Shown here in pieces: positions 6,351 to 55,726 of a DNA stretch of 64,000 bases. The notes beneath the pieces are model-generated. The model ran no database searches. It saw nothing but the letters and a program-made list of their open reading frames with translations, and was not told the DNA's origin. Every line of letters starts with the position of its first letter. The stretch's first letter is position 1. The position numbers and the translations under genes were made by a program. Source of the DNA: Ianthella basta (Eukaryota > Porifera > Demospongiae > Verongiida > Ianthellidae); the NCBI GenBank assembly GCA_964019415.1, contig OZ025870.1:12750799-12814798 (forward strand). Reading direction: 5' to 3'.

Positions 6351-7566
6351 TCTTGCCAAATCTTACCTTGTCATTTCTTGCCACATCTTGTCAAATCTTA
6401 CCTAGTCATATCTTGCCAAATCTTGAAAAATCTTACCTTGTCATATCTTACCTAATCTTGCCAAATCTTACTTTGTCATATCTTGCAAATCTCTCCAAAT
6501 CTTACCTTATCATATCTTGCCTAATCTTACCTTGTCATATCTTGCCAAATCTTACCTTGGCATATCTTGCCAGATCTAACCTTGTCATATCTTGCCAAAT
6601 CTTACCTTTTCATATCTTGCCTAATCCTACCATATCTTGCCAGATCTTACCTCGTCAAATCTTGCCAAATCTTGCCAAATCTTACCTTGTCATATCTTGT
6701 CAGATCTTGTCAAATCTTACCTTGTCATATTTTGCCAGATCTTACCTTGTCATATCTTGCCTAATCTTGCCAGATCTTACCTTGTCATATCTTGCCTAAT
6801 CTTGCCAGAATCTTACCTTGTCATATCTTGCCAGATCTTACCTCGTCATATCTTGCCAGATCAAACCTCGTCATATCTAGCTAGATCTTACCTCGTCATA
6901 TCTTGCTAGGTCTTACCTTGTCATATCCTGCCAAATCTTGCCAAATCTTACCTTGGCATATCTTGCCTAATCTTACCTTGTCATATTTTGCCAAATCTTA
7001 CCTTGTCATATCTTGCCTAATCTTACCTCGTCATATCTTGCCAAATCTTACCTTGTCATATCTTGCCAGATCTAGCCAAATCTTACCTTGTCATATCTTG
7101 CCAAATCTTGCCAAAACTTACCTTGTCATTTCTTGCCAAATCTTGCCAAATCTTGCCAAATCTTATTTAGTCATATCTTGCCAAATCTTGAGAAATCTTA
7201 CCTTGTCATATCTTACCTAATCTTGCCAAATCTTACTTTGTCATATCTTGCACATCTCTCCAAATCTTACCTTGTCATATCTTGCCTAATCTTACCTTGT
7301 CATATCTCGCCAAATCTTACCTTGTCATATCTTGCCAGATCTTACCTTGTCATATCTTGCCAAATCTTGCCAAATCTTACCTTGTCATATCTTGCCTAAT
7401 CCTACCTTATCTTACCTTGTCATATCTTGCCAAATCTTGTCAAATCTTACCTTGTCATATCTTGCCAGATCTTACCTTGTCATATCTTGCCTAATCTTGC
7501 TAGAATCTTACCTTGTCCTATCTTGCCAGATCTTACCTCGTCATATCTTGCCAGATCTTACCTCAG

Positions 7567-7697
7567 AAAAGGTTGGTTCTCTAATACCAGCTTCACAACA
7601 GGGTTGAAAACCTTGCCGACGTTTCGACCAGGTGCTCTGGTCTTCTTCAGAACCAACCCTTTTGATGCCTGAGCCAGCTGAGAAGCCCTCACTTCAG
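7567..7697. mobile_element. Non-satellite island in the array (probable retroelement relic)
   Basis: About 130 bp unlike the satellite, flanked on both sides by CAGATCTTACCTC (ending at 7565 and starting near 7695). That could be a target-site duplication, but it is also a satellite phrase. AAAAGGTTGGTTCT (7567-7580) is an inverted repeat of AGAACCAACCCTTTT (7649-7663). Between them is a perfect 6-bp stem with a 5-base loop, GACCAG at 7626-7631 and CTGGTC at 7637-7642. On the - strand the order is CTGAAGA, stem, CGAAACGTC, which resembles a hammerhead ribozyme core. The mobile-element assignment is an inference. Confidence 0.5.
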
Positions 7698-8326
7698 ATC
7701 TTACCTCGTCATATCTTGCCAAATCTTGTCAAATCTTACCTTGTCATATCTTGCCAGATCTTACCTTGTCATATCTTGCCTAATCTTGCCAGATCTTACC
7801 TTGTCATATCTTGCCTAATCTTGCCAGATCTTACCTTGTCATATCTTGCCTAATCTTGCCAGAATCTTACCTTGTCATATCTTGCCAGATCCTACCTCGT
7901 CATATCTTGCCAGATCAAACCTCGTCATATCTTGCCAGATCTTACCTCGTCATATCTTGCCTAATCTTGCCAGATCTCACCTCGTCATATCTTGCCAAAT
8001 CTTGCCAAATCGTACCTTGTCATAGCTTACCAAATCTTGCTTAATCTTACCTTGTCTTATCTTGCTAAATTTTGCTCAATCTTACCTTGTCATATCTTGC
8101 CAAATCTTGCCAAATCTTACCTTGTCATATCTTGCCTAATCTTGCCTTATTTTACCTTGTCATATCTTGCCTAATCTTGCCTAATTTTACCTTGTCAAGT
8201 CTTGCCAAATCTTGCCAAATGTTACCTTGTCATGTCTTGCCAAATCTTGCTTAATCTTACCTTGTCATATCTTGCCAAATCTTGCCAAATCTTACCTTGT
8301 CATATCTTGCCAATTGCAAATCTTGT

Positions 8327-8640
8327 CAAGATTTGGAAAGATATGACAAGGTAAGATTAGGTAAGATTAGGCAAGATATGACAAGGTAAGATTTGGCTAG
8401 ATTTGGCAAGATATGACTAGGTATGATTAAGCAAAATTTGGCAAGATATGACAAGGTAAGATTAGGCAAGATTAGGCAAGATATGATAAGGTAAGATTAG
8501 GCAAGATTAGGCAAGATATGACAAGGTATGATTTGGCAATATTTGGCAAGATATGACAAGGTAGGATTAAGCAAGATTTGGAAAGATATGACAAAGGTAA
8601 GTTTAGGCAAGATTAGGCAAGATATGACAAGGTAAGATTT
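8327..8640 (-). repeat. Inverted segment of the satellite
   Basis: About 314 bp in which the unit reads on the - strand (AGGCAAGATATGACAAGGTAAG type). The left junction is a near-perfect palindrome, CAAATCTTG (8317-8325), T, CAAGATTTG (8327-8335). The right junction is also a foldback, with GGTAAGATT (8631-8639) facing AATCTTACC (8645-8653) and arms extending to about 19 bp with one mismatch. Confidence 0.92.
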
Positions 8641-11600
8641 GCCCAATCTTACCTTATCATATCTTGACAAATCTTGCCTAATCTTACCTTCTCATATTTT
8701 GCCAAATCTTGCCTAATCTTACTGTGTCCTATCTTGCCTAATCTTGCCTAATCTTACCTCCTATCTTGCCAAATCTTGCCTAATCTTACCTTGTCATATC
8801 TTGCCAAATCTTCCTTAATCTTACCTTGTCATATCTTGCCAAATCTTGCTTAATGTTACCTTGTCATATCTTGCCAAATCTAGCCAAATCTTACCTTGTC
8901 ATATCATGCCAAATCTAGCCAAATCTTACCTTGTCATATCTTGCCAAATCTTGCCAAATCTTACCTTGTCATATCTTGCCAAATCTTACCTTGCCCTTAA
9001 TTGCCAAATATTGCAAAATATTACCTTGTCATATCTGGCCTAATCTTGCCAAATCTTACCTTGTCCTATCTTGCTAAATCTTGCCAAATCTTACCTTGTC
9101 ATATCTTGCCTAATCTTACCTTGTCATGTCTTGCCAAATCTTGCCAAATCTTACCTTGTCCTAAATTGCCAAATCTTGCAAAATATTACCTTGTCATATC
9201 TTGCCTAATCTTACCTTGCCATATCTTGCCAAATCTTACCTTGTCATATCTTGCCAGATCTTACCTTGTCATATCTTGCCAAATCTTGCCAAATCTTACC
9301 TTGTCATATCTTGCCAAATCTTACCTTGTCATATCTTGCCAAATCTTGCTAGAATCTTACCTTGTCATATCTTGCCAGATCATACCCCGTCGTATCTTGC
9401 CAGATCTTACCTCGTCATTTCTTGCCAAATCTTGCCAAATCTTACCTTGTCCTATCTTGCCAGATCTTACCTCGTCATATCTTGCCAGATCATACCCCGT
9501 CGTATCTTGCCAGATCTTACCTCGTCATTTCTTGCCAAATCTTGCCAAATCTTACCTTGTCCTATCTTGCCAGATCTTACTTTGTCATATCTTGCTTAAT
9601 CTTGCCAGATCTTACCTTGTCATATCTTGCCTAATCTTGCCAGAATCTTACCTTGTCGTATTTTGCCAGATCTTACCTCGTCATATCTTGCCAGATCAAA
9701 CCTCGTCATATCTTGCCAGATCTTACCTCGTCATATCTTGCCTAACCTTGCCAGATCTTACCTTGTCATATCTTGCCAGATCATACCTCGTCATATCTGC
9801 CAGGTCTTACCTCGTCATATCTTGCCAAATCTTGCCATATCTTACCTTGTCATATCTTACCCAATCTTGCTTAATCTTACCTTGTCATATCTTGGCAAAT
9901 CTTGCTTAATCTTATCTTGTCATATCTTACCCAATCTTGATTAATCTTACCTTGACAGATCTAGCCAAATCTTGCTTAATCTTACCTTGTCATTTCTTGC
10001 CAAATCTTGCCAAATCTTACCTTGTCATATCTTGCCAGATCTTGCCTTGTCATATCTTGCTTAATCTTGCCAGATCTTACCTTGTCATATCTTGCCTAAT
10101 CTTGCCAGAATCTTACCTTGTCATATTTTGCCAGATTTTACCTCGTCATATCTTGCCAGATCAAACCTCGTCATATCTTGCCGGATCTTACCTCGTCATA
10201 TCTTGCTTAACCTTGCCAGATCTTACCTTGTCATATCTTGCCAGATCATACCTCGTTATATCTTGCCAGGTCTTACCTCGTCATATCTTGCCAAATCTTG
10301 CCATATCTTACCTTGTCATATCTTACCCAATCTTGATTAATCTTACCTTGACAGATCTAGCCAAATCTTGCTTAATCTTACCTTGTCATATCTTGCCAAA
10401 TCTTGCCAAATCTTACCTTGTGATATCTTGCCTAATCTTGCCTAATTGTACCTTGTCAAGTCTTGCCAAATCTTGCTTAATCTTACCTCGTTATATCTTG
10501 CCAGATCATACCTTGTCATATCTTGCCAGATGTTCCCTCGTTATATCCTGCCAAATCTTTCCTAATCTTACTTGTCATATCTTGCCAAATCTTGCTTAAT
10601 CTTACATTGACATATCTTGCCAAATCTTGCCAAATCTTGCTTTGTCATATCTTGCTAAATCTTGCCAAATCTTACCTAGTCTTATCTTGCCAAATCTTGC
10701 CAAATCTTACCCTGTTATATCTTGCCAAATCTTGCTTAATCTTACTTTGTCATATCTTGCCTAATCTTACCTTGCCATATCTTGCCAAATCTTGCCAAAT
10801 CTTGCCTTGTCATATCTTGCCAATTGCAAATCTTGCCAAATCTTATCTTGTCGTATCTTGCTTAATCTTGCCTAATCTTACCTTATCATATCTTGCCAAA
10901 TCATGCTTAATCTTACCTTGTCATATCTTGCCAAATCTTGCCAAATCTTACCTTGTCATATCTTGCCAAATCTTGCTTAATCTTACCTTGTCATATCTTG
11001 CCAAATCTTGCCAAATCTCACCATGTCATATCTTGCCAATTGCAAATCTTGCCAAATCTTACCTTGTCATATCTTGCCTAATCTTGCCTAAACTTACCTT
11101 GTCATATCTTTTGAAATCTTGCCAAATCTTACCTTGTCTTATCTTGCCAAATCTTGCTTAATCTTACCCTGTCATATATATCTTGCCAAATCTTGCCAAA
11201 TCTTTTCTTGTCATGATCATATCTTGCCAATTGCAAATCTTGCCAAATCTTATCTTGTCGTATCTTGCACAATCTTGCCTAATCTTACCTAGTCATATCT
11301 TGCCTAATCTTGCTTAATCTTACCTTGTCATATCTTGCCAAATCTTGCCAAATCTTACCTTGTCATATCTTGACAAATCTTGCTTAATCTTACCTTGTCA
11401 TATCTTGCCAAATCTTGCCAAATCTCACCTTGTCATATCTTGCCAATTGCAAATCTTGCCAAATCTTACCTTGTCATATCTTCCCAAATCTTGCTCAATC
11501 TTACCCTGTCATATCTTGCCAGATCTTGCCAAATCTTACCTTGTCATATCTTGCCAATTGCAAATCTCGCCAAATCTTATCTTGTCGTATCTTGCATAAT

Positions 11601-14600
11601 CTTGCCTAATCTTACCTTGTCATATCTTGCCAAATCTTGCTTAATCTTACCTAGTCACATCTTGCTAAATCTTGCCAAATCTTACCTTGTCATATCTTGC
11701 CAAATCTAGCTTAATCTTACCCTGTCACATCTTCCAATTGTAAATCTTGCCAAGTTTTATATACCTTGTCATATCTTGCCTAATCTTACTTAATCTTACC
11801 TTGTCAAATCTTGCCAAATCTTGCCAAATCTTACTTACTCATATCTTGCCAAATCTTGCTTAATCTTGCCTCATTATATCTTGCCAGATCATACCTCGTC
11901 ATATCTTACCAGATCTTACCTCGTCATATCTTGCGAAATCTTTCGTAATCTTACTTGTTATATCTTGCCTAATCTTACCTTGTCAAATCTTGTCAAATCT
12001 TACCAAATCTTACCTTGTCATATCTTGCCAAATCTTGCCAAATCTCACCTTGTCATATCTTGCCAATTACAAATCTTGCCAAATCTTATCTTGTCGTATC
12101 TTGCATAATCTTGCCTAATCTCACCTTGTCATATCTTGCAAAATATTGCTTAATCATACCTCGTTATTTCTTGCCAGATCATACCTCATCATATCTTGCA
12201 AGATGTTCCCTCGTCATATCCTGCCAAATCTTTCCTAATCTTACTTGTCATATCTTGCCAAATCTTGCTTAATCTTATCTTGTAATATCTTGCCAAATCT
12301 TGCTTAATCTTACCTTGACATATCTTGCCTAATCTTGCCAAATCTTGCTTTGACATATGTTGCTAAATCTTGCCAAATCTTACCTTGTCTTATCTTGCCA
12401 AATCTTGCCAAATCTTACCTTGTCATATCTTGCCAAATCTTGCTCAATCTTACCCTGTCATATCTTGCCAAATCATGCAAAATCTTACCTTGTCATATCT
12501 TGCCAATTGCAAATCTTGCCAAATCTTATCTTGTCGTATCTTGCATAATCTTGCCCAATCTTACCATGTCATATCTTGCCAAATCTTGCGTAATCTTACC
12601 TAGTCACATCTTGCCAAATCTTGCCAAATCTCGCCTTGTCATATCTTGCCAAATTTTGCCTAATCTTACCTTGTCATATCTTGCCAAATCTTACCAAATC
12701 TCGCCTTGTCATATCTTGCCAAATCTTGCCAAATCTCGCCTTGTCATATCTTGCCAATTACAAATCTTGCCAAATCTTATCTTGTCGTATCTTGCATAAT
12801 CTTGCCTAATCTCACCTTGTCATATCTTGCCAAATCTTTCTTAATCTTACCTTGTCATATCTTGCCAATTCTTGCCAAATCTTACCTTGTCATATCTTGC
12901 AAAATGTCGCTTAATCATACCTCGTTATATCTTGCCAGATCATACCTCGTCATATCTTGCCAGATGTTCCCTCGTCATATCCTGCCAAATCTTTCCTAAT
13001 CTTACTTGTCATATCTTGCCAAATCTTGCTTAATCTAATCTTGTAATATCTTGCCAATTCTTGCTTAATCTTACCTTGACATATCTTGCCAAATCTAGCC
13101 AAATCTTGCTTTGTCATATCTTGCTAAATCTTGCCAAATCTTACCTTGTCTTATCTTGCCAAATCTTGCCAAATCTTACCTTGTCATATCTTGCCAAATC
13201 TTGCTTAATCTTACCCTGTCATATCTTGCCAAATCATGCCAAATCTCACCTTGTCATATCTTGCCAATTGCAAATCTTGCCAAATCTTACCTCGTCATAT
13301 CTTCCCAAATCTTGCTCAATCTTACCCTGTCATATCTTGACAGATCTTGCCAAATCTTACCTTGTCATATCTTCCCAATTGCAAATCTCGCCAAATCTTA
13401 TCTTGTCATATCTTGCATAATCTTGCCTAATCTTACCTTGTCATATCTTGCCAAATCTTGCTTAATCTTATCTTGTCGTATCTTGCATAATCTTGCCTAA
13501 TCTCACCTTGTCATATCTTGCCAAATCTTGCTTAATCTTACCTTGTCATATGTAGCCAAATTTTGCTAAATCTTACCTTGTCATATCTTGCCAAATCTTG
13601 CCAAATCTCACCTTGTCATATCTTGCCAAATCTTGCCAAATCTCACCTTGTCATATCTTGCCAAATCTTGCCAAATCTTACCTTGTCATATCTTGCAAAA
13701 TGTTGCTTAATCATACCTCGTTATATCTTGCCAGATCATACCTCGTCATATATTGCAAGATGTTCCCTCGTCATATCCTGCCAAATCTTTCCAAATCTTA
13801 TTTGTCATATCTTGCCAAATCTTGCTTAATCTTACCTTGACATATCTTGCCAAATCTTACCAAATCTTGCTTTGTCATATCTTGCTAAATCTTGCCAAAT
13901 CTTACCTTGTCTTATCTTGCCAAATCTTGCCAAATCTTACCTTGTCATATCTTGCCAAATCTTTCTTAATCTTACCCTGTCATATCTTGCCAAATCATGC
14001 CAAATCTCACCTTGTCATATCTTGCCAATTGCAAATCTTGCCAAATCTTATCTTGTCGTATCTTGCATAATCTTGCCTAATCTTACCTTGTCATATCTTG
14101 CCAAATCTTGCTTAATCTTACCTAGTCACATCTTGCTAAATCTTGCCAAAGCTTAGCTTGTCATATCTTGCCAAATCTTGCTTAATCTTACCCTGTCATA
14201 TCTTCCAATTGCAAATATTGCCAAGTTTTATATACCTTGTCATATCTTGCCTAATCTTACTTAATCTTACCTTGTCAAATCTTGCCAAATCTTGCCAAAT
14301 CTTACTTTGTCATATCTTGCCAAATCTTGCTTAATCTTGCCTCATTATATCTTGCCAGATCATACCTCGTCATATCTTGCCAGCTCTTACCTCGTCATAT
14401 CTTGCGAAATCTTTCTTAATCTTACTTGTCAGATCTCGCCAAATCTTTCATAATCCTATCTTGTCATATCTTGCCTAATCTAAATAATCTTACCTTGTCA
14501 AATATTGCCAAATCTTACCAAATCTTACTTTGTCATATCTTGCCAAATCTTGCTTAGTCTTGCCTCATTATATCTTGCCAGATCATACCTCGTCATATCT

Positions 14601-17600
14601 TGCCAGATCTTACCTCGTCATATCTTATGAAATCTTTCATAATCTTACTTGTCATATCTTGCCTAATCTTGCCTAATCTTACCTTGTCATATCTTGCCAA
14701 ATCTTACCAGATCTCACCTTGTCATATGTTGCCAAATCTTGCCAAATCTCACCTTGTCATATCTTGCCAATTACAAATCTTGCCAAATCTTATCTTGTCG
14801 TGTCTTGCATAATCTTGCCTAATCTCACCTTGTCATATCTTGCCAAATCTTGCTTAATCTTACCTTGTCATATCTTGCCAAATCATGCCAAATCTTACCT
14901 TGTCATATCTTGCCAATTGCAAATCTTGCCAAATCTTACCTTGTCTTATCTTGCCTAATCTTGCCTAAGCTTACCTTGTCATATCTTTTCAAATCTTGCC
15001 AAATTTTACCTTGTCATATCTTGCCAAACCCTGCTTAATCTTACCCTGTCATATCTTGCCAAATCTTGCCAAATCTTGCCTTGTCATATCTTGCAAATTG
15101 CAAATCTTGCCAAATCTTATCTTGCCGTATCTTGCATAATCTTGCCTAATCTTACCTTGTCATATCTTGCCAAATCTTGCTTAATCTTACCTTGTCATAT
15201 CTTGTCAAATCTTGTTTAATCTTACCTTGTCATATCTTGCCAAATCTTGCTTAATCTTTCCTTGTTATATCTTGCCAAATGTTGCCAAATCTCACCTTGT
15301 TATATCTTGCCAATTGCAAATCTTGCCAAATCTTACCTTGTCATATCTTGCCTAATCTTGCCTAAACTTACCTTGTCATATCCTTTGAAATCTTGCCAAA
15401 TCTTACCTTGTCATATCTTGCAAAATCTTGCCTAATCTTACCTAGTCATATCTTGCCAAATCTTGCTTAATCTTACCTTGTCATATCTTGCCAAATCTTG
15501 CCAAATCTTACCTTGTCATGTCTTGCCAAATCTTGCTTAATCTTACCTTTTGATATCTTGCCAAATCTTGCCAAATCTCACCTTGTCATCACTTGCCAAA
15601 TCTTACCTTGTCATATCTTGCCAATTGCAAATCTTGCCAAATCTTACCTTGTCATATCTTGCCTAATCTTGCCTAAGCTTACCTTGTCATATCTTTTGAA
15701 ATCTTGCCAAATCTTACCTTGTCATATCTTGCCAAACCCTGCTTAATCTTACCCTGTCATATCTTTTCCAAATCTTGCCAAATCTTGCCTTGTCATATCT
15801 TGCCAATTGCAAATCTTGCCAAATCTTATCTTGTTGTATCTTGCATAATCTTGCCTAATCTTACCTTGTCATATCTTGCCAAATCTTGCTTAATCTTACC
15901 TAGTCATATCTTGCCAAATCTTGTTTAATCTTACCTTGTCATATCTTGCCAAATCTTACTTAATCTTGCCTTGTCATATCTTGCCAAATCTTGTCAAATC
16001 TCACCTTGTCATATCTTGCCAATTGCAAATCTTGCCAAATCTTACCTTGTCATATCTTGCCTAATCTTGCCTAAACTTACCTTGTCATATCTTTTGAAAT
16101 CTTGCCAAATCTTACCTTGTCATATCTTGCCCAATCTTACCTTGTCATATCTTGCCAGATCTTACCTTGTCATATCTTGCCAAATCTTGCCAAATCTTAC
16201 CTTTCATATCTTGCCTAATCTTACCAAATCTTACCTTGTCATATCTTGCCAATTGCAAATCTTGCCAAATCTTATCTTGTCGTATCTTGCATAATCTTGC
16301 CTAATCTTACCTTGTCATATCTTGCCAAATCTTGCCAAATCTTACCTTGTCATATCTTGCCAAATCTTGTCAAATCTCACCTTGTCATATCTTGCCAATT
16401 GCATATCTTGCCAAATCTTACCTTGTCATATCTTGCCTAATCTTGCCTAAACTTACCTTGTCATATCTTTCCAAATCTTGCCAAATCTTACCTTGTCATA
16501 TCTTGCCAAATCTTACCTTGTCATATCTTGCCAAAACTTGCTTAATCTTACCCTGTCATATCTTGCCAAATCTTGCCAAATCTTACCTTGTCATATCTTG
16601 CCAATTGCAAATCTCGCCAAATCTTATCTTGTCGTATCTTGCATAATCTTGCCTAATCTTACCTTGTCATATCTTGCCAAATCTTGCTTAATCTTACCTT
16701 GTCATATCTTGCCTAATCTTGCCAAATCTTACCTTGTCATATCTTGCCAAATCTTGCTTAATCTTACCTTGTCATATCTTGCCAAATCTTGCTTAATCTT
16801 ACCTAGTCATATCTTGCCAAATCTTACCTTGTCATATCTTGCCAATTGCAGATCTTGCCAAATCTTATCTTGTCGTATCTTGCATAATCTTGCCAAATCT
16901 TACCTTGTCATATCTTGCCTAATCTTGCCTAAACTTGCCTTGTCATATCTTTTAAAATCTTGCCAAATCTTACCTTATCATATCTTTTCCAAATCTTGCC
17001 AAAACTTACCTTGTCATATCTTGCCAATTGCAAATCTTGCCATATCTTATCTTGTCATATCTTGCCAAATCTTGCTTAATCTTACTTAGTCATATCTTGC
17101 CAAATCTTGCCAAATCTGACCTTGTCATATCTTGCCTATTGCTAATCTTGCAAATCTTATCTTGTCATATCTTGCCTAATCTTACCTAGTCATATCTTGC
17201 CTAATCTTGCTTAATCTTACCTTGTCATATCTTGCCAAATCTTGCCAAATCTTACCTTGTCATATCTTGACAAATCTTGCTTAATCTTACCTTGTCATAT
17301 CTTGCCAAATGTTGCCAAATCTCACCTTGTCATATCTTGCCAATTGCAAATCTTGCCAAATCTTACCTTGTCATATCTTACCAAATCTTGCTCAATCTTA
17401 CCCTGTCATATCTTGCCAGATCTTTCCAAATCTTACCTTGTCATATCTTGCCAATTGCAAATCTTGTCAAATCTTATCTTGTCGTATCTTGCATAATCTT
17501 GCCTAATCTTACCTTGTCATATCTTGCCAAATCATGCTTAATCTTACCTAGTCACATCTTGCCAAATCTTGCCAAATCTTACCTTGTCATATCTTGCCAA

Positions 17601-20475: not shown

Positions 20476-20965
20476 TACCTTGTCATATCTTGCCAAATCT
20501 TGCTTAATCTTACCTAGTCATATCTTGCCAAATCCTGCCAAATCTTACCTTGTCATATCTTGCCTAGTCTTACTTAATCTGACCTTGTCATATCTTTCCA
20601 AATCTTGCCAAATCTTACCTTGTCATATCTTGCCAAATTTTGCCTAATCTCACCTTGTCATATCTTGCCTAATCATTCTTAATCTTACCCTGTCATATCT
20701 TGCCAAATCATGCCAAATCTTACTTTGTCATATCTTGCCAAATCTTGCTTAATCTTACCTAGTCATATCTTGCCAAATCCTGCCAAATCTTACCTTGTCA
20801 TATCTTGCCTAGTCTTACTTAATCTGACCTTGTCATATCTTTCCAAATCTTGCCAAATCTTACCTTGTCATATCTTGCCAAATTTTGCCTAATCTCACCT
20901 TGTCATATCTTGCCTAATCATTCTTAATCTTACCCTGTCATATCTTGCCAAATCATGCCAAATCT
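20476..20965 (+). repeat. 245-bp tandem duplication within the satellite
   Basis: Marker variants (AATCTGACC, TGCCTAGTCTTACTT, CCAAATCCTGCC) repeat at an offset of 245 bp, equal to seven 35-bp units. Confidence 0.85.
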
Positions 20966-32900: not shown

Positions 32901-33480
32901 TTTACCAAATCTGGCCAGATTTCACCTCGTCATATATTGCCTAATCTTGCCTAATCTTACCTTGTCATATCTTGCCAATTCTTACCTTGTCATATCTTGC
33001 CAAATCTTGCCAAATCTTACCTTGTCATATCTTGCCTAATCTTACCAAATCTTACCTTGTCATATCTTGCCAAATCTTGCCAAATCTTACCTTGTCATAT
33101 CTTGCCTAATCTTACCTTGCCAAATCTTGCCAAATCTTACCTTGTCATATCTTGCCAAATCTTTCCTTGTCATATCTTGCCCAATCTTACCTTGTCATAT
33201 CTTGCCAGATCTTACCTTGTCATATTTTGCCAAATCTTGCTTAATCTTACCTAGTCATATCTTGCCATATCTTGCTAAATCTTACCTTGTGATATCTTGC
33301 CAATTGAAAATCTTGCCAAATCTTACCTTGTCATATCTAGCCTAATCTTACTTAATCTCACCTTGTCATATCTTTCCAAATCTTGCCAAATCTTACCTTG
33401 TCATATCTTGCCAAATCTTGCCTAATCTCACCTTGTCATATCTTGCCTAATCTTGCTTAATCTTACCTTGTCATATCTTG

Positions 33481-40679: not shown

Positions 40680-42000
40680 TTGTCATATCTTGCCAAATCT
40701 TGCAAAATTTTACCTTGTCATATCTTGCCAAATCTTGCTTAATCTTGCCTTGTCATATCTTGCCAAATCTTGCTTAATCTTACCTTGTCATATCTTGCCA
40801 AATCTTAGCTTGTCATAACTTGCCAATTGCAAATCTTGCCAAATCTTACCTTGTCATATCTTACCTAATCTTGCCTAAACTTACCTTTTCGTATCTTTTC
40901 AAATCTTGCCAAATTATACCTTGTCATATCTTGCCAAATCTTATCTTGTCATATCTTGCCAAATCTTGCCTAACTTACCTTGTCATATCTTGCCAATTGC
41001 AAATCTTACCTAGTCATATCTTGCCAAATCTCGCCAAATCTTGCCTAGTCATATCTTGCCTAATCTTACTTAATCTTACCTTGTCATATCTTTCCAAATC
41101 TTGCCAAATATCACCTTGTCATATCTTGCCAAATCTTGCCTAATCTCACCTTGTCATATCTTGCCTAATCTTGCTTAATCTTGCCTTATCATATCTTGTC
41201 AAATGTTGCCAAATCTTACCTTGTCAGATCTTGCCAAATGTTGGCAAATTTTACCTTGTCATAACTTGCCAAATCGTGCCTAATCTTATATTGTCATATC
41301 TTACCTAATCTTGCATAATCTTACCTTGTCATATCTTGCCAAATCTTACATTGTCATATCTTGCCTAATCTTGCAAAATTTTACCTTGTCATATCTTGCC
41401 AAATCTTGCTTAATCTTACCTTGTCATATCTTGCCAAATCTTGCTTAATCTTACCTTGTCATATCTTGCCAAATCTTAGCTTGTCATAACTTGCCAATTG
41501 CAAATCTTGCCAAATCTTACCTTGTCATATCTTACCTAATCTTGCCTAAACTTACCTTTTCGTATCTTTTCAAATCTTGCCAAATTATACCTTGTCATAT
41601 CTTGCCAAATCTTTCTTAATCCTATCTTGTCATATCTTGCCAAATCTTGCCTAACTTACCTTGTCATATCTTGCCAATTGCAAATCTTACCTAGTCATAT
41701 CTTGCCAAATCTCGCCAAATCTTGCCTAGTCATATCTTGCCTAATCTTACTTAATCTTACCTTGTCATATCTTTCCAAATCTTGCCAAATCTTACCTTGT
41801 CATATCTTGCCAAATCTTGCCTAATCTCACCTTGTCATATCTTGCCTAATCTTGCTTAATCTTACCTTATCATATCTTGTCAAATGTTGCCAAATCTTAC
41901 CTTGTCAGATCTTGCCAAATGTTGGCAAATTTTACCTTGTCATAACTTGCCAAATCTTGCCTAATCTTATATTGTCATATCTTACCTAATCTTGCATAAT
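40680..42000 (+). repeat. 681-bp tandem duplication within the satellite
   Basis: Markers TTTTCGTATC, CCAAATTATACC and TGTTGGCAAATT recur at an offset of about 681 bp (for example 40880 and 41561). The boundaries are approximate. Confidence 0.8.
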
Positions 42001-45000
42001 CTTACCTTGTCATATCTTGCCAAATCTTACCTTTTCATATCTTGCCTAATCTTACCTTATCTTACCTTGTCATATCTTGCCAAATCTTACCTTGTCATAT
42101 CTTGCCAAATCTTGCAAAATCTTACCTTGTCATATCTTGTCTAATCTTGTCAAATCTTACCTTGTCATATCTTGCCAAATCTTGCCTAATCTTAACTTGT
42201 CATATCTTGCCAAATCTTGCCAAATCTTACCTTTTCATATCTTGCCAAATCTTGCCAAATCTTACCTTGTCATATCTTGCCAAATCTTAGCTTGTCATAT
42301 CTTGCCAATTGCAAATCTTGCCAAATCTTACCTTGTCATATATTACCTAATCTTGCCTAAACTTACCTTGTCACATCTTACCTAATCTTGCCTAAACTTA
42401 CCTTGTCATATCTTTCCAAATCTTGCCAAATCTTACCCAGTCATATCTTGCCAAATCTTACCTTGTCATATCTTTTCAAATTTTGCCAAATCTTACCTTG
42501 TCATATCTTGCCAAATCTATCTTAATCTTATCTTGTCATATCTTGCCAAATCTTGCCAAATCTTACCTTGTCATATCTTGCCAATTGAAAATCTTACCTA
42601 GTCATATCTTGCCAAATCTCGCCAAATCTTACCTTGTCATATCTTGCCTAATCTTACTTAATCTTACCTTGTCATATCTTTCCAAATCTTGCCAAATATC
42701 ACCTTGTCATATCTTGCCTAATTTTGCTTAATCTTACCCTGTCATATCTTGCCAAATCTTGCCAAATCTTACCTTGTCATATCTTGCCAAATGTTGCCAA
42801 ATCTTGCCTAATCTTATTTTTTCATATCTTACCTAATCTTGCCTAATCTTACCTTGTCATATCTTGCCTAATCTTGCCTAATCTTATCTTGTCATATCTT
42901 GCCAAATCTTGCTTAATCTTACCGTGTCATATCTTGCCTAATCTTGCTTAATCTTACCTTGCCATCTTTTACCAAATCTGTCCAGATCTCACCTCGTCAT
43001 ATATTGCCTAATCTTACTTAATCTTACCTTGTCATATCTTGCCAATCTTACCTTGTCATATCTTGCCAAATCTTGCCAAATCTTACATTGTCATATCTTG
43101 CCAAATCTTGCATAATCTTACCTTGTCATATCTTGTCTAATCTTGACAAATCTTACCTTGTCATATCTTGCCAAATCTTGCAAAATCTTACCTTGTCATA
43201 TCTTGCCAAATCTTGCTTAATCTTACCTTGTCATATCTTGCCAAATCTTGCTTAATCTTACCTTGTCATATCTTGTCAAATCTTAGCTTGTCATATCTTG
43301 CCAATGGCAAATCTTACCAAATCTTACCTTGTCACATCTTACCGAATCTTGCCTAAACTTACCTTTTCACATCTTTTCAAATCTTGCCAAATCTTACCTT
43401 GTCATATCTTGCCAAATCTTTCTTAATCCTATCTTGTCATATCTTGCCAAATCTTGCTTAATCTTACCTTGTCATATCTTGCCAATTGCAAATCTTACCT
43501 AGTCATATCTTGCCAAATCTTGCCAAATCTTACCTTGTCATATCTTGCCTAATCTTACTTAATCTTACCTTGTCATATCTTTCCAAATCTTGCCAAATCT
43601 TACCTTGTCATATCTTGCCAAATCTTGCCTAATCTCACCTTGTCATATCTTGCCTAATCTTGCTTAATCTTGCCTTATCATATCTTGCCAAATGTTGCCA
43701 AATCTTACCTTGTCAGATCTTGCCAAATGTTGCTAAATTTTATCTTGTGATAACTTGCCAAATCGTGCCTAATCTTATATTGTCATATCTTACCAAATTT
43801 TGCCTAATCTTACCTTATCATATCTTGCCAAATCTTACCTTTTCATATCTTGCCTAATCTTACCTTATCTTACCTTGTCATATCTTGCCAAATCTTGCAA
43901 AATCTTACCTTGTCATATCTTGCAAATTGCAAATCTTGCCAAATCCTACGTTGTCATATCTTGCCTAATCTTGCCAAATCTTACCATGTCATATATAGCC
44001 AAATCTTGCCAAATCTTACCTTTTCATATCTTGCCTAATCTTACCTTATCTTGCCTTGTCATATCTTGCCAAAACTTGCCAAATCTTACCTAGTCATATC
44101 TTGCCAAAACTTGCCAAATCTTACCTTGTCATATCTTGCCAAATCTTGCTTAATCGTACCTAGTCATATCTTGCCAAATCTTGTCAAATCTTACCTTGTC
44201 ATATCTTGCCAAATGCAAATCTTGCCAAATCTTACCTTGTCATATCTTGCCTAATCTTACTTAATCTTACCTTGTCATATCTTTCCAAATCTTGCCAAAT
44301 CTTACCTAGTCATATCTTGCCAAATCTTGCCTAATCTCACCTTGTCATAACGTGCCAAAACTTGCTTAATCTTACCTTATCATATCTTGCCAAATCTTGC
44401 CAAATCTTACCTTGGCATATCTTGCCAATTGCAAATCTTGCCAAATCCTACCTTGTCATATCTTGCCTAATCTTGCCAAATCTTACCTTGTCATATATAG
44501 CCAAATCTTGCCTAATCTTTCCTTGTCATATCTTGCCAAATCTTACCTTGTCATATCTTGCCAGATCTTGCCTTGTCATATCTTGCCAAATCTTGCCAAA
44601 TCTTACCTTATCATATTTTGCCTAATCTTACCTTATCTTACATTGTCATATCTTGCCAAAACTTGCCAAATCTTACCTTGTCATATCTTGCCAAAACTTG
44701 TCAAATCTTACCTTGTCATATCCTGCCAAATTATGCCAAATCTTACCTTGTCATATCTTGCCAATTGCAAATCTTGCCTAATCCTACCTTGTCGTATCTT
44801 GCCTAATCTTATCTAAACTTTCTTTGTCATAACTTTCCAAATCTTGCCAAATCTTACCTTGTCATATCTTGCCAAATCTTGCCAAATCTTACCTTGTCAT
44901 ATCTTGCCAAATCTTGCCAAATCTTACCTTGTCATATCTTGCCTAATCCAGCCTAATTATATCTTGTCAAATCATGCCAAATCTTGCCAAATCTTACCTT

Positions 45001-45780
45001 GTCATATCTTGCCAAAACTTGCTTAATCTTACCTTGTCATACCTTGCCAGATCATGCCTTGTCACATTTTGCCAGATCTTACCTCGTCATATCTTGCCAA
45101 ATCTTTCCTAATCTTACTTGTCATATTTTGCCAAATCTTGCTTAATCTTATCTTGTCATATCTTGCCAAATCTTGCTTAATCTTACCTTGTCATATCTTG
45201 CCAAATCTTAGCTTGTCATATCTTGCCATTTGCAAATCTTGCCAAATCTTACCTTGTCACATCTTACCTTATCTTGCCTAAACTTACCTTGTCATATCTT
45301 TCCAAATCTTGCCACATCTTACCTTGTCATATCTTGCCAAATCTTGCCTAATCTTATATTGTCATATCTTACCTAATCTTGCCTAATCTTACCTTGTCAT
45401 ATCTTGCCTATTCTTGCCTAATCTTATCTTGTCATATCTTGCAAAATCTTGCTTAATCTTACCATGTCATATCTTGCCAAATCTTGCTTAATCTTACCTC
45501 GCCATCTTTTACCAAATCTGTCCAGATCTCACCTCGTCATATATTGCCTAATCTTACCTAATCTTACCTTGTCATATCTTGCCAAATCTTACCTTGTCAT
45601 ATCTTGCCAAATCTTGCATGATCTTGCCTTGTCATATCTTGTCATATCTTGCCTAATCTTGCCAAATCTTACCTTGTCAGATCTTGCCAAATCTTGCCAA
45701 ATCTTACCTTGTCATATCTTACCTTATCTTGCCTAAACTTACCTTGTCATATCTTTCCAAATCTTGCCTAATCTTACCTT

Positions 45781-46965
45781 GTCATATCTTGCCAAATCTT
45801 TCTTAATCTTACCCTGTCATATCTTGCCAAATCTTGCCAAATCTTACCTTGTCATATCTTGCCAATTGCAAATCTTTCCAAATCTTATCTTGTCATATCT
45901 TGCCTAATCTTGCCTATTCTTACCTTGTCATATCTTGCCAAATCTTGCTTAATCTTACCTAGCCATATCTTGCTAAATCTTGCCAAATCTTACCTTGTCA
46001 TATCTTGCCAATTGCAAATCTTGCCAAATCTTATCTTGTCATATCTTTCCAAATCTTGCCAACTCTTACCTAGTCATATCTTGCCAAATCTTGCCAAATC
46101 TTACCTTGTCATATCTTGCCTAATCTTGTCTAATTTTACCTTGTCAAATCTTTCCAAATCTTACCTTGTCATATCTTGCCAAATTTTGCTTAATCATACC
46201 TCGTCATACCTTGCCAGATCATACCTCGTCACATCTTGCCAGATCTTACCTCGTCATACCTTGCCAAATCTTGCTTAATCTTATCTTGTCATATCTTGCC
46301 AAATCTTGCTTAATCTTACCTTGTCTTATCTTGCTAAATCTTGCCTAATCTTACCTTGTCATATCTTTCCAAATCTTGCTTAATCTTACCTTGTCATATC
46401 TTGCCAAATCTTTCTTAATCTTACCCTGTCATATCTTGCCAAATCTTGCCAAATCTTACCTTGTCATATCTTGCCAATTGCAAATCTTTCCAAATCTTAT
46501 CTTGTCATATCTTGCCTAATCTTGCCTATTCTTACCTTGTCATATCTTGCCAAATCTTGCTTAATCTTACCTAGCCATATCTTGCTAAATCTTGCCAAAT
46601 CTTACCTTGTCATATCTTGCCAATTGCAAATCTTGCCAAATCTTATCTTGTCATATCTTTCCAAATCTTGCCAAATCTTACCTCGTCATATCTTGCCAAA
46701 TCTTGCCAAATCTTACCTTGTCATATCTTGCCTAATCTTGTCTAATTTTACCTTGTCAAATCTTTCCAAATCTTACCTTGTCATATCTTGCCAAATTTTG
46801 CTTAATCATACCTCGTCATACCTTGCCAGATCATACCTCGTCACATCTTGCCAGATCTTACCTCGTCATACCTTGCCAAATCTTGCTTAATCTTATCTTG
46901 TCATATCTTGCCAAATCTTGCTTAATCTTACCTTGTCTTATCTTGCTAAATCTTGCCTAATCTTA
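45781..46965 (+). repeat. 612-bp tandem duplication within the satellite
   Basis: 45781-46392 is repeated from 46393 at an offset of 612 bp, with shared markers AATCTTTCCAAATC, TTGCCTATTC, CTAGCCATATC and CATACCTTGCCAGATC. Confidence 0.88.
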
Positions 46966-47429
46966 CCTTGTCACATCTTGCCAAATCTTGCTTAATCTTA
47001 CCTTGTCATATCTTGCCAAATCTTACTTAATCTTACCTTGTCATATCTTGCCAAATCTTGCTTAATCTTACCTTGTCATATCTTGCCAAATCTTGCTTAA
47101 TCTTACCTTGTCTTATCTTGCTAAATCTTGCCTAATCTTACCTTGTCATATCTTGCCAAATCTTGCTTAATCTTACCTTGTCATATCTTGCCAAATCTTA
47201 CTTAATCTTACCTTGTCATATCTTGCCTAATCTTGTTTAATCTTACCTTGTCATATCTTGCCAAATCTTAGCTTGTTATTTCTTGCCAATTGCAAATCTT
47301 GCCAAATCTTACCTTGTCATATCTTACCTAATCTTGCCTAAACTTACCGTGTCATATCTTTCCAAATCTTGCCAAATCTTACCTTGTCATATCTTGCCAA
47401 ATCTTTCTTAATCTTTCCCTGTCATATCT

Positions 47430-48190
47430 TGCCAAATCTTGCTTAATCTTACCTTGTCATATGTTGCCAAATCTTGCCAAATATTACCTTGTCATATCTT
47501 GCCAATTGCAAATCTTGCCAAATCTTACCTTGTTATACCTTGCCTACTTACCTTGTCATATCTTTCCAAATCTTGCCAAATCTTACCTTGTCAAATTACC
47601 AAATTTTGCCTATTTTTACTAATTTACCAAATTTTGCCTAATCTCACTTTGTCATATCTTGCCTAATCTTGCTTAATCTTACCTTGTCATATCTTGCCAA
47701 ATGTTGCCAAATCTTACCTTTTCATATCTTGCCAAATCTTGCCTAATGTTATATTGTCATATCTTACCTAATCTTGCCTAATCTTACCTTGTCATATCTT
47801 GCCTAATCTTGCTGAATCTTACCTTGTCATATCTTGCCAAATCTTGCCAAATATTACCTTGTCATATCTTGCCAATTGCAAATCTTGCCAAATCTTACCT
47901 TGTTATACCTTGCCTACTTACCTTGTCATATCTTTCCAAATCTTGCCAAATCTTACCTTGTCAAATTACCAAATTTTGCCTATTTTTACTAATTTACCAA
48001 ATTTTGCCTAATCTCACCTTGTCATATCTTGCCTAATCTTGCTTAATCTTACCTTGTCATATCTTGCCAAATGTTGCCAAATCTTACCTTTTCATATCTT
48101 GCCAAATCTTGCCCAATGTTATATTGTCATATCTTACCTAATCTTGCCTAATCTTACCTTGTCATATCTTACCTAATCTTGCTGAATCTT
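47430..48190 (+). repeat. 370-bp tandem duplication with a degenerate AT-rich core
   Basis: Two copies at an offset of 370 bp each carry a stretch that departs from the unit: TCAAATTACCAAATTTTGCC, then TATTTTTACTAATTTACC, at about 47591-47640 and 47961-48010. This is the most diverged satellite stretch outside the foreign island. Confidence 0.88.
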
Positions 48191-51100
48191 ACCTTGTCAT
48201 ATCTTGCCTAATCTTGCTTAATCTTACCATGTCATATCTTGCCAAATCTTCCTTAATCTTACCTTGTCATCTTTTACCAAATCTGGCCAGATCTCACCTC
48301 GTCATATATTGCCTAATCTTGCCTAATCTTACCTTGTCATATCTTGCCAAATCTTACCTTGTCATATCTTGCCAAATCTTGCCAAATCTTACCTTGTCAT
48401 ATCTTGCCAAATCTTGCTTAATCTTACCTTGTCATATCTTGCCTAATCTTGCCAAATCTTACCTTGTCATATCTTGCCAAATCTTGCCAAATCTTACCTT
48501 GTCATATCTTGCCAAATCTTTCCTTGTCATATCTTGCCAAATCTTACCTTGTCATATCTTGCCAGATCTTACCTTGTCATATCTTGCCAAATCTTGCCTA
48601 ATCTTACCTTGTCATATCTTGCCAATTGCAAATCTTGCCAAATCTTACCTTGTCATATCTTGCCTAATCTTACCTAATCTTATCTTGTCATATCTTTCCA
48701 AATCTTGCCAAATCTTACCTTGTCATATCTTGCCAAATCTTGCCAAATCTAACCTTGTCATATCTTGCCTAATCTTGCCTAATTTTACCTTGTCAGATCT
48801 GTCCAAATCTTACCTTGCCATATCTTGCCAAATTTTTCTTAATCTTACCTCGTCATACCTTGCCAGATCATACCTCGTCACATCTAGCCAGATCTTACCT
48901 CGTCATATCTTGCCAAATCTTTCCTAATCTTACTTGTCATATCTTGCTAAATCTTGCTTAATCTTATCTTGTCGTATCTTGCCTACTCTTGCTTAATCTT
49001 GCCTTGTCTGATCTTGCCAAATCTTGCCTAATCTTACCTTGACATATCTTGCTTAATCTTACCTTGTCATATCTTGCCAAATCTTACTTAATCTTACCTT
49101 GTCATATCTTGCCTAATCTTGTTTAATCTTACCTTGTCATATCTTGCCAAATCTTAGCTTGTTATATCTTGCCAATTGCAAATCTTGCCAATCTTACCTT
49201 GTCATATCTTACCTAATCTTGCCTAAACTTACCTTGTCATATCTTTCCAAATCTTGACAAATCTTACCTTGTCATATCTTGCCAAATCTTTCTTAATCTT
49301 ACCCTGTCATATCTTGCCAAATCTTGCTTAATCTTACCTAGTCATATCTTGCCTTAATCTTGCCAAATATTGCCTTGTCATATCTTGCCAATTGCAAAAC
49401 TTGCCAAATCTTACCTTGTCATATCTTGCCTACTTACCTTGTTATATCTTTCCAAATCTTGCCAAATCTAACCTTGTCATATCTTGCCAAATCTTGCTTA
49501 ATCTCACCTTGTCATATCTTGCCTAATCTTGCTTAATCTTACCTTGTCAAATCTTGCCAAATGTTGCCAAATCTAACCTTGTCATATCTTGCCAAATCTT
49601 GCCTAATGTTATATTGTCATATCTTACCTAATCTTGCCTAATTTTACCTTGTCATATCTTGCCAAATCTTGCCTAATCTTACCTTGTCATATCTTGCCAA
49701 ATCTTGCTTAATCTCACCTTGTCATATCTTGCCAAATCTTCCTTAATCTTACCTTGTCATCGTTTACCTAATCTGGCCAGATCTCACCTCGTCATATATT
49801 GCCTAATCTTGCCTAATCTTACCTTGTCATATCTTGCCAAATCTTACCTTGTCATATCTTGCCAAATCTTGCCAAATCTTACCTTGTCATATCTTGCCTA
49901 ATCTTACCAAATCTTACCTTGTCATATCTTGCCAAATCTTGCCAAATCTTACCTTTTCATATCTTGCCTAATCTTACCTTGCCAAATCTTTCCAAATCTT
50001 ACCTTTTCATATCTTGCCTTATCTTACCTTGTCATATCTTGCCAAATCTTGCCAAATCTTATCTTGTCATATCTTGCCAGATCTTACCTTGTCATATCTT
50101 GCCAAATCTTGCCTAATCTCACCTTGTCATATCTTGCCTAATCTTGCTTAATCTTACCTTGTCAAATCTTGCTAAATGTTGCCAAATCTTACCTTTTCAT
50201 ATCTTGCCAAATCTTGCCTAATCTTATATTGTCATATCTTACCTAATCTTGCCTAATCTTACCTTGTCATATCTTGCCTAATCTTGCTGAATCTTACCTT
50301 GTCATATCTTGCCTAATCTTGCTTAATCTCACCTTGTCATATCTTGCCAAATCTTCTTTAATCTTTCCTTGTCATCGTTTACCAAATCTGGCCAGATCTC
50401 ACCTCGTCATATATTGCCTAATCTTGCCTAATCTTACCTTGTCATATCTTGCCAAATCTTACCTTGTCATATCTTGCCAAATCTTGCCAAATCTTACCTT
50501 GTTATATCTTGCCAAATCTTGCCAAATCTTACCTTGTCATATCTTGCCTAATCTTGCCAAATCTTGCCTTGTCATATCTTGCCATATCTTGCCAAATCTT
50601 ACCTTTTCATATCTTGCCTAATCTTACCTTATCTTGCCTTGTCATATCTTGCCAAAACTTGCCAAATCTTACCTAGTCATATCTTGCCAAAACTTGCCAA
50701 ATCTTACCTTGTCATATCTTGCCAAATCTTGCTTAATCGTACCTAGTCATATCTTGCCAAATCTTGTCAAATCTTACCTTGTCATATCTTGCCAAATGCA
50801 AATCTTGCCAAATCTTACCTTATCATATCTTGCCAGATCTTACCTTGTCATGTCTTGCCAAATCCTGCCAAATCTTACCTTTTCATATCTTGCCTTATCT
50901 TACATTATCTTACCTTGTCATATCTAGCCAAATCTTGCCAAATCTTACCTTGTCATATCTTGCCAGATCTAACCTTGTCATATCTTGCCAAATCTTGCCA
51001 AATCTTGCCTTGTCATATCTTGCCAATGCAAATCTTGCCAAATCTTACCTTGTCATATCTTGCCTAATCTTACCTAATCTTTCTTTGTCATATCTTTCCG

Positions 51101-54100
51101 AATATTGCCAAGTCTTACCTTGTCATATCTTGCCAAATTTTACCCTGTCATATCTTGCCTCATCTTGCCTAATTTTACCTTGTCAAATCTTGCCAAATCT
51201 TGCTAAATCTTACCTTGTCATATCTTTCCATATCATACCCAATCTTACCTTGTCATATCTTGCCAAATCTTTCTTAATTTTACCCTGTCATATCTTGCCA
51301 AATCTTGCCAAATCTTACATTGTCATACCTTGCCAATTGCAAATCTTGCCAAATCTTATCTTGTCACATCTTGCCTAATCTTGCCTAATCTTACCTTGTC
51401 ATATCTTGCCAATTGCAAATCTTGCCAAATCTAACCTTGTCATATCTTGCCTAATCTTACCTTGTCAGATCTTGCCAAATCTTACCAAATCTTACCTTGT
51501 CATATCTTGCTAATTGCAAATCTTGCCTAATCTTACTTAATCTTTCCTTGTTATATCTTGCCAAATCTTGCCAAATCTTACCTTGTCATATCTTGCCTAA
51601 TCTTGCCTAATCTCACCTTGTCATATCTTGCCTAATCTTGCTTAATCTTACCTTGTCATATCTTGCCAAATCTTGCCAAATCTTACCTTGTCATATCTTG
51701 CCAAATCTTGCCTAATCTTATATTGTCATATCTTACCTAATCTTGCCTATTCTTACCTTGTCATATCTTGCCTATTCGTGCCTAATCTTACCTTGTAACA
51801 TCTTGCCAAATCTTGCTTAATCTTACCTTGTCATATCTTGCCTAATCTTGCCTAATCTTATATTGTCATATCTTACCTAATCTTGCCTATTCTTACCTTG
51901 TCATATCTTGCCTATTCGTGCCTAATCTTACCTTGTCACATCTTGCCAAACCTTGCTTAATCTTACCTTGTCATATCTTGCCTAATCTTGCCAAATCTTA
52001 CCTTGTCATATCTTGCCAAATCTTGCCAAATCTTACATAGTCATATCTTGCCTAATCTTTCCTTGTCATATCTTGCCATATCTTACCTTGTCATATCTTG
52101 CCAGATCTTACCTTGTCTTATCTTGCCAAATCTTGCCAAATCTTACCTTTTATTATCTTGCCAAATCTTGCCAAATCTTACCTTGTCATATCTTGCCATA
52201 TCTTACCTTGTCATATCTTGCCAAATCTTGCTTAATCGTACCTAGTCATATATACCTTTCCAAATCTTGCCAAATCTTACCTTGTCATATCTTACCAATG
52301 CAAATCTTGCCAAATCTTACCTTGTCATATCTTGCCTAATCTTACCTAATCTTTCTTTGTCATATCTTTCCAAATCTTGCCAAATCTTATCTTGTAATAT
52401 CTTGCCAAATCTTACCCTGTCATATCTTGCCTAATCTTGTCTAATTTTACCTTGTCCTATCATTCCAAATCTTGCCAAATCTTACCTTGTCATATCTTGC
52501 CAAATCTTCCTTAATCTTACCTAGTCATACCTTGCCAGATCACACCTCGTCACATCTTGCCAGATCTTACCCCGTCATATCTTGCCAAATCTTTCCTAAT
52601 CTTACTTGTCATATCTTGCCAAATCTTGCTTAATCTTATCTTGTCATATCTTGCCAAATCTTGCTTAATCTTACCTTGTCTTATCTTGCCAAATCTTGCC
52701 AAATCTTACCTTGTCATATCTTGCCAAATCTTGCCAAATCTTGCTTAATCTTACCCTGTCATATCTTGCCAAATCTTGCCAAATCTTACCTTGTCATATC
52801 TTGCCAATTGCAAATCTTGCCAAATCTTATCTTGTCATATCTTGCCTAATCTTGCCTAATCTTACCTTGTCATATCTTTACAAATCTTGCTTAATCTTAC
52901 CTAGTCATATCTTGCTAAATCTGGCCAAATCTTACCTTGTCATATCTTGCCTAATCTTACCTAATCTTATCTTGTCATATCTTTCCAAATCTTGCCAAAT
53001 CTTACCTTGTCATATCTTGCCAAATCTTGCCAAATCTTACCTTGTCATATCTTACCTAATCTTGCCTAATTTTACCTTGTCAAATCTTTCCAAATCTTAC
53101 CTTGTCATATCTTGCCAAATTTTGCTTAATCTTACCTCGTCATACCTTGCCAGATCATACCTCGTCACATCTATCCAGATCTTTCCTCGTCATATCTTGC
53201 CAAATCTTTCCTAATTTTACTTGTCATATCTTGCCAAATCTTGCTTAATCTTATCTTGTCATATCTTGCCAAATCTTGCTTAATCTTGCCTTGTCTTATC
53301 TTGCCAAATCTTGCCTAATTTACCTTGTCATATCTTGTCAAATCTTGCTTAATCTTACCTTGTCATATCTTGCCAAATCTTACTTAATCTTACCTTGTCA
53401 TATCTTGCCAAATCTTGTTTAATCTTACCTTGTCATATCTTGCCAAATCTTGCCTAATCTTATATTGTCATATCTTACCTAATCTTGCCTAATTTTACCT
53501 TGTCATATATATCTTGCCTAATCTTGCTGAATCTTACCTTGTCATATCTTGCCAAATCTTGCTTAATCTTACCTTGTCATATCTTGCCAAATCTTCCTTA
53601 ATCTTACCTTGTCATCGTTTACCAAATCTGGCCAGATCTCACCTCGTCATATTCTGCCTAATCTTGCCTAATCTTACCTTGTCATATCTTGCCAAAACTT
53701 ACCTTGTCATATCTTGCCAAATCTTGCCAAATCTTACTTTGTCATATCTTGCCAAATCTTGCAAAATCTTACCTTGTCATATCTTGCCTAATCTTGCCAA
53801 ATCTTGCCTTGTCATATCTTGCCAAATCTTGCCAAATCTTACCTTGTCATATCTTGCCAAATCTTGCCAAATCTTACATTGTCATACCTTGCCAATTGCA
53901 AATCTTGCCAAATCTTATCTTGTCATATCTTGCCTAATCTTGCCTAATCTTACCTTGTCATATCTTGCCAAATCTTGCTTAATCTTACCTTGTCATATCT
54001 TGCCAATTGCAAATCTTGCCAAATCTAACCTTGTCATATCTTGCCTAATCTTACCTTATCAGATCTTGCCAAATCTTGCCAAATCTTACCTTGTCATATC

Positions 54101-55726
54101 TTGCCAATTGCAAATCTTGCCAAATCTAACCTTGTCATATCTTGCCTAATCTTACTTAATCTTACCTTGTTATATCTTGCCAAATCTTGCCAAATCTTAC
54201 CTTGTCATATCTTGCCAAATCTTGCCTAATCTCACCTTGTCATATCTTGCCTAATCTTGCTTAATCTTACCTGGTCATATCTTGCCAAATCTTGCCAAAT
54301 CTTACCTTGTCATATCTTGCCAAATGTTGCCAAATCTTACCTTGTCATATCTTGCCTAATCTTGCCTAATCTTATATTGTCATATCTTACCTAATCTTGC
54401 CAAATCTTACCTTGTCATATCTTGCCTAATCTTGCTTAATCTTACTTTGTCATATCTTGCCAAATCTTGCTTAATCTTACCTTGTCATATCTTGCCTAAT
54501 CTTGCCAAATCTTACCTAGTCATATCTTGCCTAATCTTTCCTTGTCATACCTTGCCAAATCTTACCTTGCCATATCTTGCCAGATCTTACCTTGTCATAT
54601 CTTGCCAAATCTTGCCAAATCTTACCTTTTCTTACCTTGCCTAATCTTACCTTATCTTACCTTGTCATATCTTGCCAAATCTTGCCAAATCTTACCTTGT
54701 CATATCTTACCAGATCTTACCTTGTCATATCTTGCCAAATCTTGCTTAATCTTACCTTGTCATATCTTACCAGATCTTACCCTGTCATAACTTGCCAAAT
54801 CTTTCTTAATCGTACCTAGTCATATCTTGCCAAATCTTGCCAAATCTTACCTTGTCATATCTTGCCAATGCAAATTTTGCCAAATCTTACCTTGTCATAT
54901 CTTGCCTAATCTTACCTAATCTTTCTTTGTCATATCTTTCCAAATCTTGCCAAATCTTACCTTGTCATATCTTGCCAAATCTTACCCTGTCATATCTTGC
55001 CTAATCTTGTCTAATTTTACCTTGTCAAATCTTGCCAAATCTTGCCAAATCTGACCTTGTCATATCTTGCCAAATCTTCCTTAATCTTACCTAGTCATAC
55101 CTTGCCAGATCATACTTCGTCACATCTTGCCAGATCTTACCCCGTCATATCTTGCCAAATCTTTCCTAATCTTACTTGTCATATCTTGCCAAATCTTGCT
55201 TAATCTTATCTTGTCATATCTTGCCAAATCTTGCTTAATCTTATCTTGTCTTATCTTGCCAAATCTTGCCAAATCTTACCTTGTCATATCTTGCCAAATC
55301 TTGCTTAATCTTACTTTGTCATAACTTGCCAAATCATGCCAAATCTTACCTTGTCATATCTTGCCAAATCTTGCTTAATCTTACCTTGCCATATCTTGCC
55401 AAATCTTAGCTTGTCATATCTTGCCAATTGCAAATCTTGCCAAATCTTACCTTATCTTGCCTAAACTTACCTTGTCATATCTTTCCAAATCTTGCCAAAT
55501 CTTGCTTAATCTTACCCTGTCATATCTTGCCAAATCTTACCTTGTCATATCTTGCCAATTGCAAATCTTGCCAAATCTTATCTTGTCATATCTTGCCTAA
55601 TCTTGCCTAATCTTACCTTGTCATATCTTTCCAAATCTTGCTTAATCTTACCTAGTCATATCTTGCCAAATCTGGCCAAATCTTACCTTGTCATATCTTG
55701 CCAATTGCTAATCTTGCCAAATCTTA

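Follow-up and report, generated by a model that had tools for sequence, protein, structure and literature searches.

Positions 12750799-12814798 of contig C3, in an assembly of 96 contigs and 209,087,449 bases, form the 64,000-nucleotide window analyzed here, most of which is occupied by one tandem array of short units. The question raised by this locus is whether the array is a local expansion or one representative of a satellite that is dispersed in the genome. A first-pass annotation, made from the letters of the window alone, placed the array at 6351..55726 and left the choice between these outcomes to a search of the assembly. The analysis described below indicates, with high probability, that the array belongs to a satellite family that is non-coding and mainly subtelomeric, its 35-bp unit being composed of one 15-bp module (A) followed by two 10-bp modules (B).

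Structure of the array

Both TRF and a decomposition into modules had been proposed as checks by the first-pass annotation. TRF reports a single array at 6350-55704 with a period of 35, 1397 copies and 76% matches, and a k-mer scan sets the limits at 6347-55727, with a short inverted block between them, so the original limits are correct to within a few bases. The composition changes sharply at the array edges, the array itself being about 35% GC. The decomposition of 49,376 bp, in which 154 bases were left unassigned, bears out the description of a composite array built from two modules that each start with TCTT, and provides the module counts and unit order. Module A (15 bp, TCTTACCTTGTCATA) was found 1444 times, 541 of them exact; the 10-bp type module B (TCTTGCCAAA) 2547 times (936 exact); and a 16-bp module, E (TCTTGCCAATTGCAAA), 134 times (72 exact). 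All three of the units that had been said to coexist are present, with ABB (15+10+10; 1062 units) predominant over AB (15+10; 234) and AEB (15+16+10; 107), in addition to 13 ABBB units. Divergence from the module consensus averages approximately 9% and peaks at 0.128 in the first 2.5 kb of the array.

Two interruptions, a segment of foreign DNA and the inverted block, are found within the array (Table 1). Short inverted blocks comparable to that of the window are also seen in two other arrays, at L021 6750-6886 and L029 6116-6393. Beside the next array of C3 there is a near-perfect hairpin of about 107 bases (L021 5275-5381), a partial copy of which lies inside the window array at 7565-7695. 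The hairpin matches Rfam miRNA models below gathering scores only and is reminiscent of Penelope-like/hammerhead motifs.

Table 1. Coordinates of the array and of associated features in the window
Feature	Position	Strand	Evidence or remarks
Satellite array, 35-bp A-B-B unit with 25-bp A-B and 41-bp A-E-B variants	6347..55727	+	TRF, k-mer scan, module decomposition
Foreign DNA of ~130 bp within array	7565..7695	.	Related DNA borders next C3 array (L021)
Inverted block within array	8327..8642	-	k-mer scan; junction letters
Block duplicated in tandem at a spacing of 1330 bp, with exact pieces of up to 435 bp	33458..36123	+	Internal exact repeats
Paralogous copy of both flanks without array; array-less site ~2014-2019	1..3450	.	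Identity 91.3% left (727-2016 vs 5062-6346), 88.4% right (2014-3450 vs 55728-57160)
Left array flank, paralogue of 727-2016; IDH-like 3' exon region by eye	5062..6346	+	
Right array flank, paralogue of 2014-3450; ORF 55989-56993 on minus strand	55728..57160	-	
Start of further segmental duplication copy	63295..64000	+	93.8% to 1-706

Basic unit and growth within arrays

In each of the 16 array groups that the assembly sample comprises, ABB is the most frequent unit, at 69-94% of units, and is therefore considered the basic unit. In the window, the two B positions of ABB differ in their variants and the AB units are distinguished by TCTTGCCAGA, a variant that accounts for 27.8% of AB and is outside the eight commonest variants at either ABB position. 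AB directly follows AB 83 times, compared to 37.9 expected. Given this variant and the excess of AB-AB succession, AB seems to be propagated as a unit. Tandem block duplications with spacings of 245, 384, 612 and 1330 bp are among the longest exact internal repeats of the window array; others of these repeats are far apart (e.g., 11,396 bp). The number of 16-mers per A module is 0.09-0.11 in the window array, in the two arrays that come next on C3 and in the array at 8.27 Mb of C1, and no more than 0.023 in the remaining groups, the left end of C12 excepted (3 versus 30 A modules in a 1.2-kb sample).

On the best reading of these data, the satellite grows mainly via block duplication and less via single 10-mers. 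The first-pass annotation had proposed growth by gain or loss of 10-mers as well as of whole units; single 10-mer gain does occur, as seen in the ABBB units, but growth by 10-mers is the less well supported part of this proposal. Within arrays, unequal exchange and replication errors would duplicate blocks that range from a few units to over 1 kb, and the 25-bp and 41-bp units would be variants amplified like other blocks. The notion that the 15-mer is a fused pair of 10-mers is unsupported, the predicted 20-mer intermediate occurring 0 times in 14 array groups.

Abundance and chromosomal position

An exact 32-mer taken from the array is repeated 154 times in the window; the whole assembly contains 6555 copies, 3337 on one strand and 3218 on the other, against 0 for the reversed control, which is far beyond chance. 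The first-pass annotation had equated a single locus with a local expansion and many loci with a genomic satellite; arrays are found on many contigs, and by that yardstick the repeat is a genomic satellite and not a local expansion. Like satellites in general, it forms long head-to-tail arrays and has a high copy number at several loci. Extrapolation from the 32-mer density (643 matches per 190 kb of array in 20 sources, with 1.5 to 6.8 per kb in single sources) gives a total of approximately 1.9 Mb, or about 0.9% of the assembly. The exact 32-mer has 0 matches in IMG/VR and 0 in GTDB contigs, from which records close to the genome of the window were possibly left out.

The places of arrays were collected from exact matches to seven rarer variant patterns of 32 to 85 bases and from one contig-start read. 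For the 32-mer above (6555 matches) and for two of these patterns (148 and 146 matches), the places cover the first 100 matches listed, in contig order, so that later contigs are under-sampled and those with no cluster among the matches listed (C5, C11, C13 and others) may still carry arrays. Among the matches listed, 24 clusters were recognized, of which 16, 18 and 20 are within 100, 250 and 650 kb of a contig end, compared to 0.52, 1.33 and 3.41 expected for random places in simulations that use estimated sizes for C17 and C21, omit C23-C25 and the matches on the 110-kb contig C54, and draw on places that are partly a selection per cluster. The complete lists alone place 9 of 15 clusters within 250 kb of a contig end, versus 0.82 expected; when the left cluster of C9, which stems from the contig-start read and not from the pattern search, is excluded from the 24, 17 of 23 are within this distance. 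Orientation of the arrays relative to the contig end is mixed (12 vs 8, p 0.50), and a fixed orientation toward the end is thus unsupported. Four clusters are interior, at 8.27 Mb and 13.95 Mb of C1, 3.45-4.13 Mb of C3 and 1.51 Mb of C10, and a distance of 0.51 Mb separates the window cluster from a contig end at which no telomere tract is seen. Gaps of 200 N are present in and beside the 8.27-Mb array of C1 (L012 5376-5575 and L014 6576-6775), so that scaffolding may have influenced how large this array is and where it lies.

Twenty contig starts, one of them all N, and five ends were read. Among these 25 extremities, telomere-type tracts reach the end at the left of C2 and C3 and at the right of C9 only. 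At the right end of C9, a TTAGGG tract is within the last 1.5 kb, and the last array match (8,287,787) is about 10 kb from the end and at most 8.5 kb from the tract. At the left of C2, a CCCTAA tract occupies 6-755 and array matches begin at 52.7 kb; at the left of C8, interrupted tracts at 1.0-2.0 kb precede array matches at 16-93 kb. The left end of C3 has a telomere tract, but its first array match among those listed is at 3.45 Mb. As the remaining ends read lack a long telomere tract, some contig ends may be assembly breaks, perhaps caused by the repeat. The subtelomeric assignment is in line with the location of 18 of the 24 clusters at most 250 kb from a contig end, two of these ends (C2 left, C9 right) bearing a telomere tract and the tractless ones being possibly breaks. 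At C3 left (L035 1-2000), the telomere tract is followed by a different short tandem repeat, containing AGGAAGTCGTTTGCAGCA, and a similar repeat is found at the start of C15.

The same distribution could be seen as that of a centromeric or pericentromeric satellite, many contig ends then being breaks at centromeres. Large arrays do sit at contig ends, C16 starting inside an array and C9 and C12 having one within the first 0.9 kb, and the interior blocks at 3.45-4.13 Mb of C3 and 8.27 Mb of C1 could be centromeres. We nevertheless regard this reading as unlikely: instead of one main site per chromosome, six contigs (C4, C7, C9, C12, C15 and C20) have clusters near both ends, that at C9 left comprising only 161 bp, and telomere tracts are present near the arrays of C9 right and C2 left.

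Probable insertion site in the window

The size of the array relative to the compact genes around it was called striking by the first-pass annotation, which is valid locally but not beyond. The surroundings are a tandem segmental duplication. Because 727-2016 and 2014-3450 match the two flanks (Table 1), one copy carries both flanks adjoining, without the array. The ORF of the right flank matches SH3 and TRAF-type zinc finger (zf-TRAF) models, with RING models just below curated cut-offs, and the surroundings contain isocitrate-dehydrogenase-like exons, with a Pfam match below cut-off. In a third segmental copy (L021) the region of the site is unrelated DNA, and a later C3 array shares its right flank with the window array at 98% identity. 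The segmental duplication is surrounded by long runs of G and by CA/GT runs (1-12, 655-762, 59500-59650, 62466-62488). The sequence is CCTCCATAT/ATCTTGCC at the left junction, TCTTATATAT/TTACCATATG at the right one and CCTCCATATGTACCATATG in the array-less copy. From this single array-less copy we infer that the array was more likely inserted at the site than cleanly lost from it.

Transport to new places by a mobile element would account for an insertion, and the ends at the window site can indeed be read as a 4-5 bp target duplication. However, CATAT occurs in the repeat unit, so that the left junction is explained by microhomology and an element is not needed. Some flanking sequences are shared: about 600 bp of the right flank of a C14 array are 94% identical to the right flank of two C3 arrays, and C1 and C3 arrays are bordered, in opposite orientation, by a repeat of about 470 bp (72.6%). 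These may equally be duplicated DNA, and the 22 edges compared have no terminal sequence in common. Transport by a mobile element is regarded as improbable. A 656-bp insertion in the C10 array (L028 7074-7729), with TTAA/TAA flanks and CCCT...AGGG-like ends, is reminiscent of piggyBac elements.

Subfamilies and probable exchange between chromosome ends

A single 35-bp majority sequence, with differences only at positions 23, 32 and 33, is found in the 14 array groups compared, which are partly non-independent (three arrays of the window cluster, two parts of the 8.27-Mb array of C1 and two C3 places). The numbers of shared 45-mers per thousand define several subfamilies: 209-506 among C6 left, C9 right and C16 left (the last a short sample of 2.0 kb); 160-180 between the three C3 window arrays and the 8.27-Mb array of C1; 116 for C12 left, a short sample of 1.2 kb, and C20 left; and 64-125 between the C3 arrays at 3.45, 3.68 and 3.96 Mb and that of C10, with 720 for the 3.45/3.68 pair. 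Other pairs share 11-65, and the arrays at 13.95 Mb of C1, C4 left and C14 left belong to no such subfamily. The flanks of the 3.45- and 3.68-Mb arrays (L017/L018) are more than 99% identical, indicating that 3.45-4.13 Mb of C3 holds recent duplications. As expected under concerted evolution, variants are array- or group-specific, with the polymorphic positions 23, 32 and 33 being common to groups. New arrays would be seeded by ectopic exchange between chromosome ends, and segmental duplication may also have moved arrays with it.

For a sub-variant with TCTTACTTTTTCATA, the assembly contains 146 exact matches, and the 100 matches listed are all no farther than about 0.37 Mb from a contig end and are distributed over 11 ends (C2 left, C4 left, C7 left and right, C8 left, C9 right, C12 left and right, C15 left and right, C19 right). 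Among the matches listed there are none on C1, C3 or C10, nor at the terminal clusters of C6, C14, C16 and C17, and the sub-variant is absent from the window. Tentatively, and with less than even confidence, which the lack of listed matches at those four terminal clusters lowers somewhat, this pattern may be taken as a record of exchange, in which the sub-variant circulates only in terminal arrays and those displaced inward, such as the window array, became isolated and evolved a module of their own, the 16-mer. If true, the repeat would be a marker of past chromosome-end positions.

Coding capacity and constraint

The array could also act through its sequence, as a coding repeat on the plus strand or through minus-strand units that resemble 5' splice sites. 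The plus-strand consensus is free of stops in three frames, the longest open stretch spans 302 codons, and CAAG/GTAAGA in minus-strand units is a 5' splice-site-like motif. On the other hand, ATG is depleted in the array (131 vs 426 expected from base composition), each plus frame contains 380-428 stops, and, within module A, the C on which the GT of the donor depends ranks with the less conserved positions (0.881 in the window, 0.903 on average). Based on ATG depletion, stops and per-position conservation, both candidates were ruled out, and a sequence-dependent role is very improbable. Conservation profiles correlate between array groups at 0.74 on average, and the common polymorphic positions are as compatible with old variants from a common pool as with constraint. 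With positions 23, 32 and 33 excluded, C/G positions average 0.933 and A/T positions 0.964, values that mutation by itself could produce. The array groups compared show no conspicuous constrained box, and Rfam families have 0 matches in the window at gathering score. Since a variant pool and mutation fit the profile, with neither a constrained box nor an Rfam match, no sequence-specific function is proposed; the repeat would at most act as replaceable, putatively heterochromatic DNA near chromosome ends.

The probability of a purely local minisatellite expansion between two convergent genes, which the sharp edges and the array-less paralogous copy might suggest, is negligible, as the genome-wide 32-mer count rejects it and flanks elsewhere are unlike those of the window, one neighboring C3 array excepted.

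Relationship to known satellites

The satellite family is thus real and sizeable, subtelomeric and ordinary in kind. No description of it was found among the top papers listed in literature searches, made by words and not by sequence, and a search for sponge genomes and tandem repeats returned no paper. The repeat provides a sequence-defined marker for the chromosome ends of this genome, and its subfamilies could help to follow exchange between ends and to recognize interior arrays that are former ends or errors of scaffolding. Among known systems, khipu of common bean is a subtelomeric satellite with a 528 bp unit (PMC3797529). The two are alike in forming tandem arrays near chromosome ends and differ in unit length, 35 bp here versus 528 bp. 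The human subtelomeric minisatellites CEB1 and CEB25 also have short units near chromosome ends; they are described as GC-rich (PMC3486850), whereas the present array, at about 35% GC, is a member of a family that makes up about 0.9% of the assembly. The scattered satellite DNAs of the Pacific oyster (PMC8268682) resemble this family in having many arrays in many places, but the arrays described here are strongly biased to contig ends.
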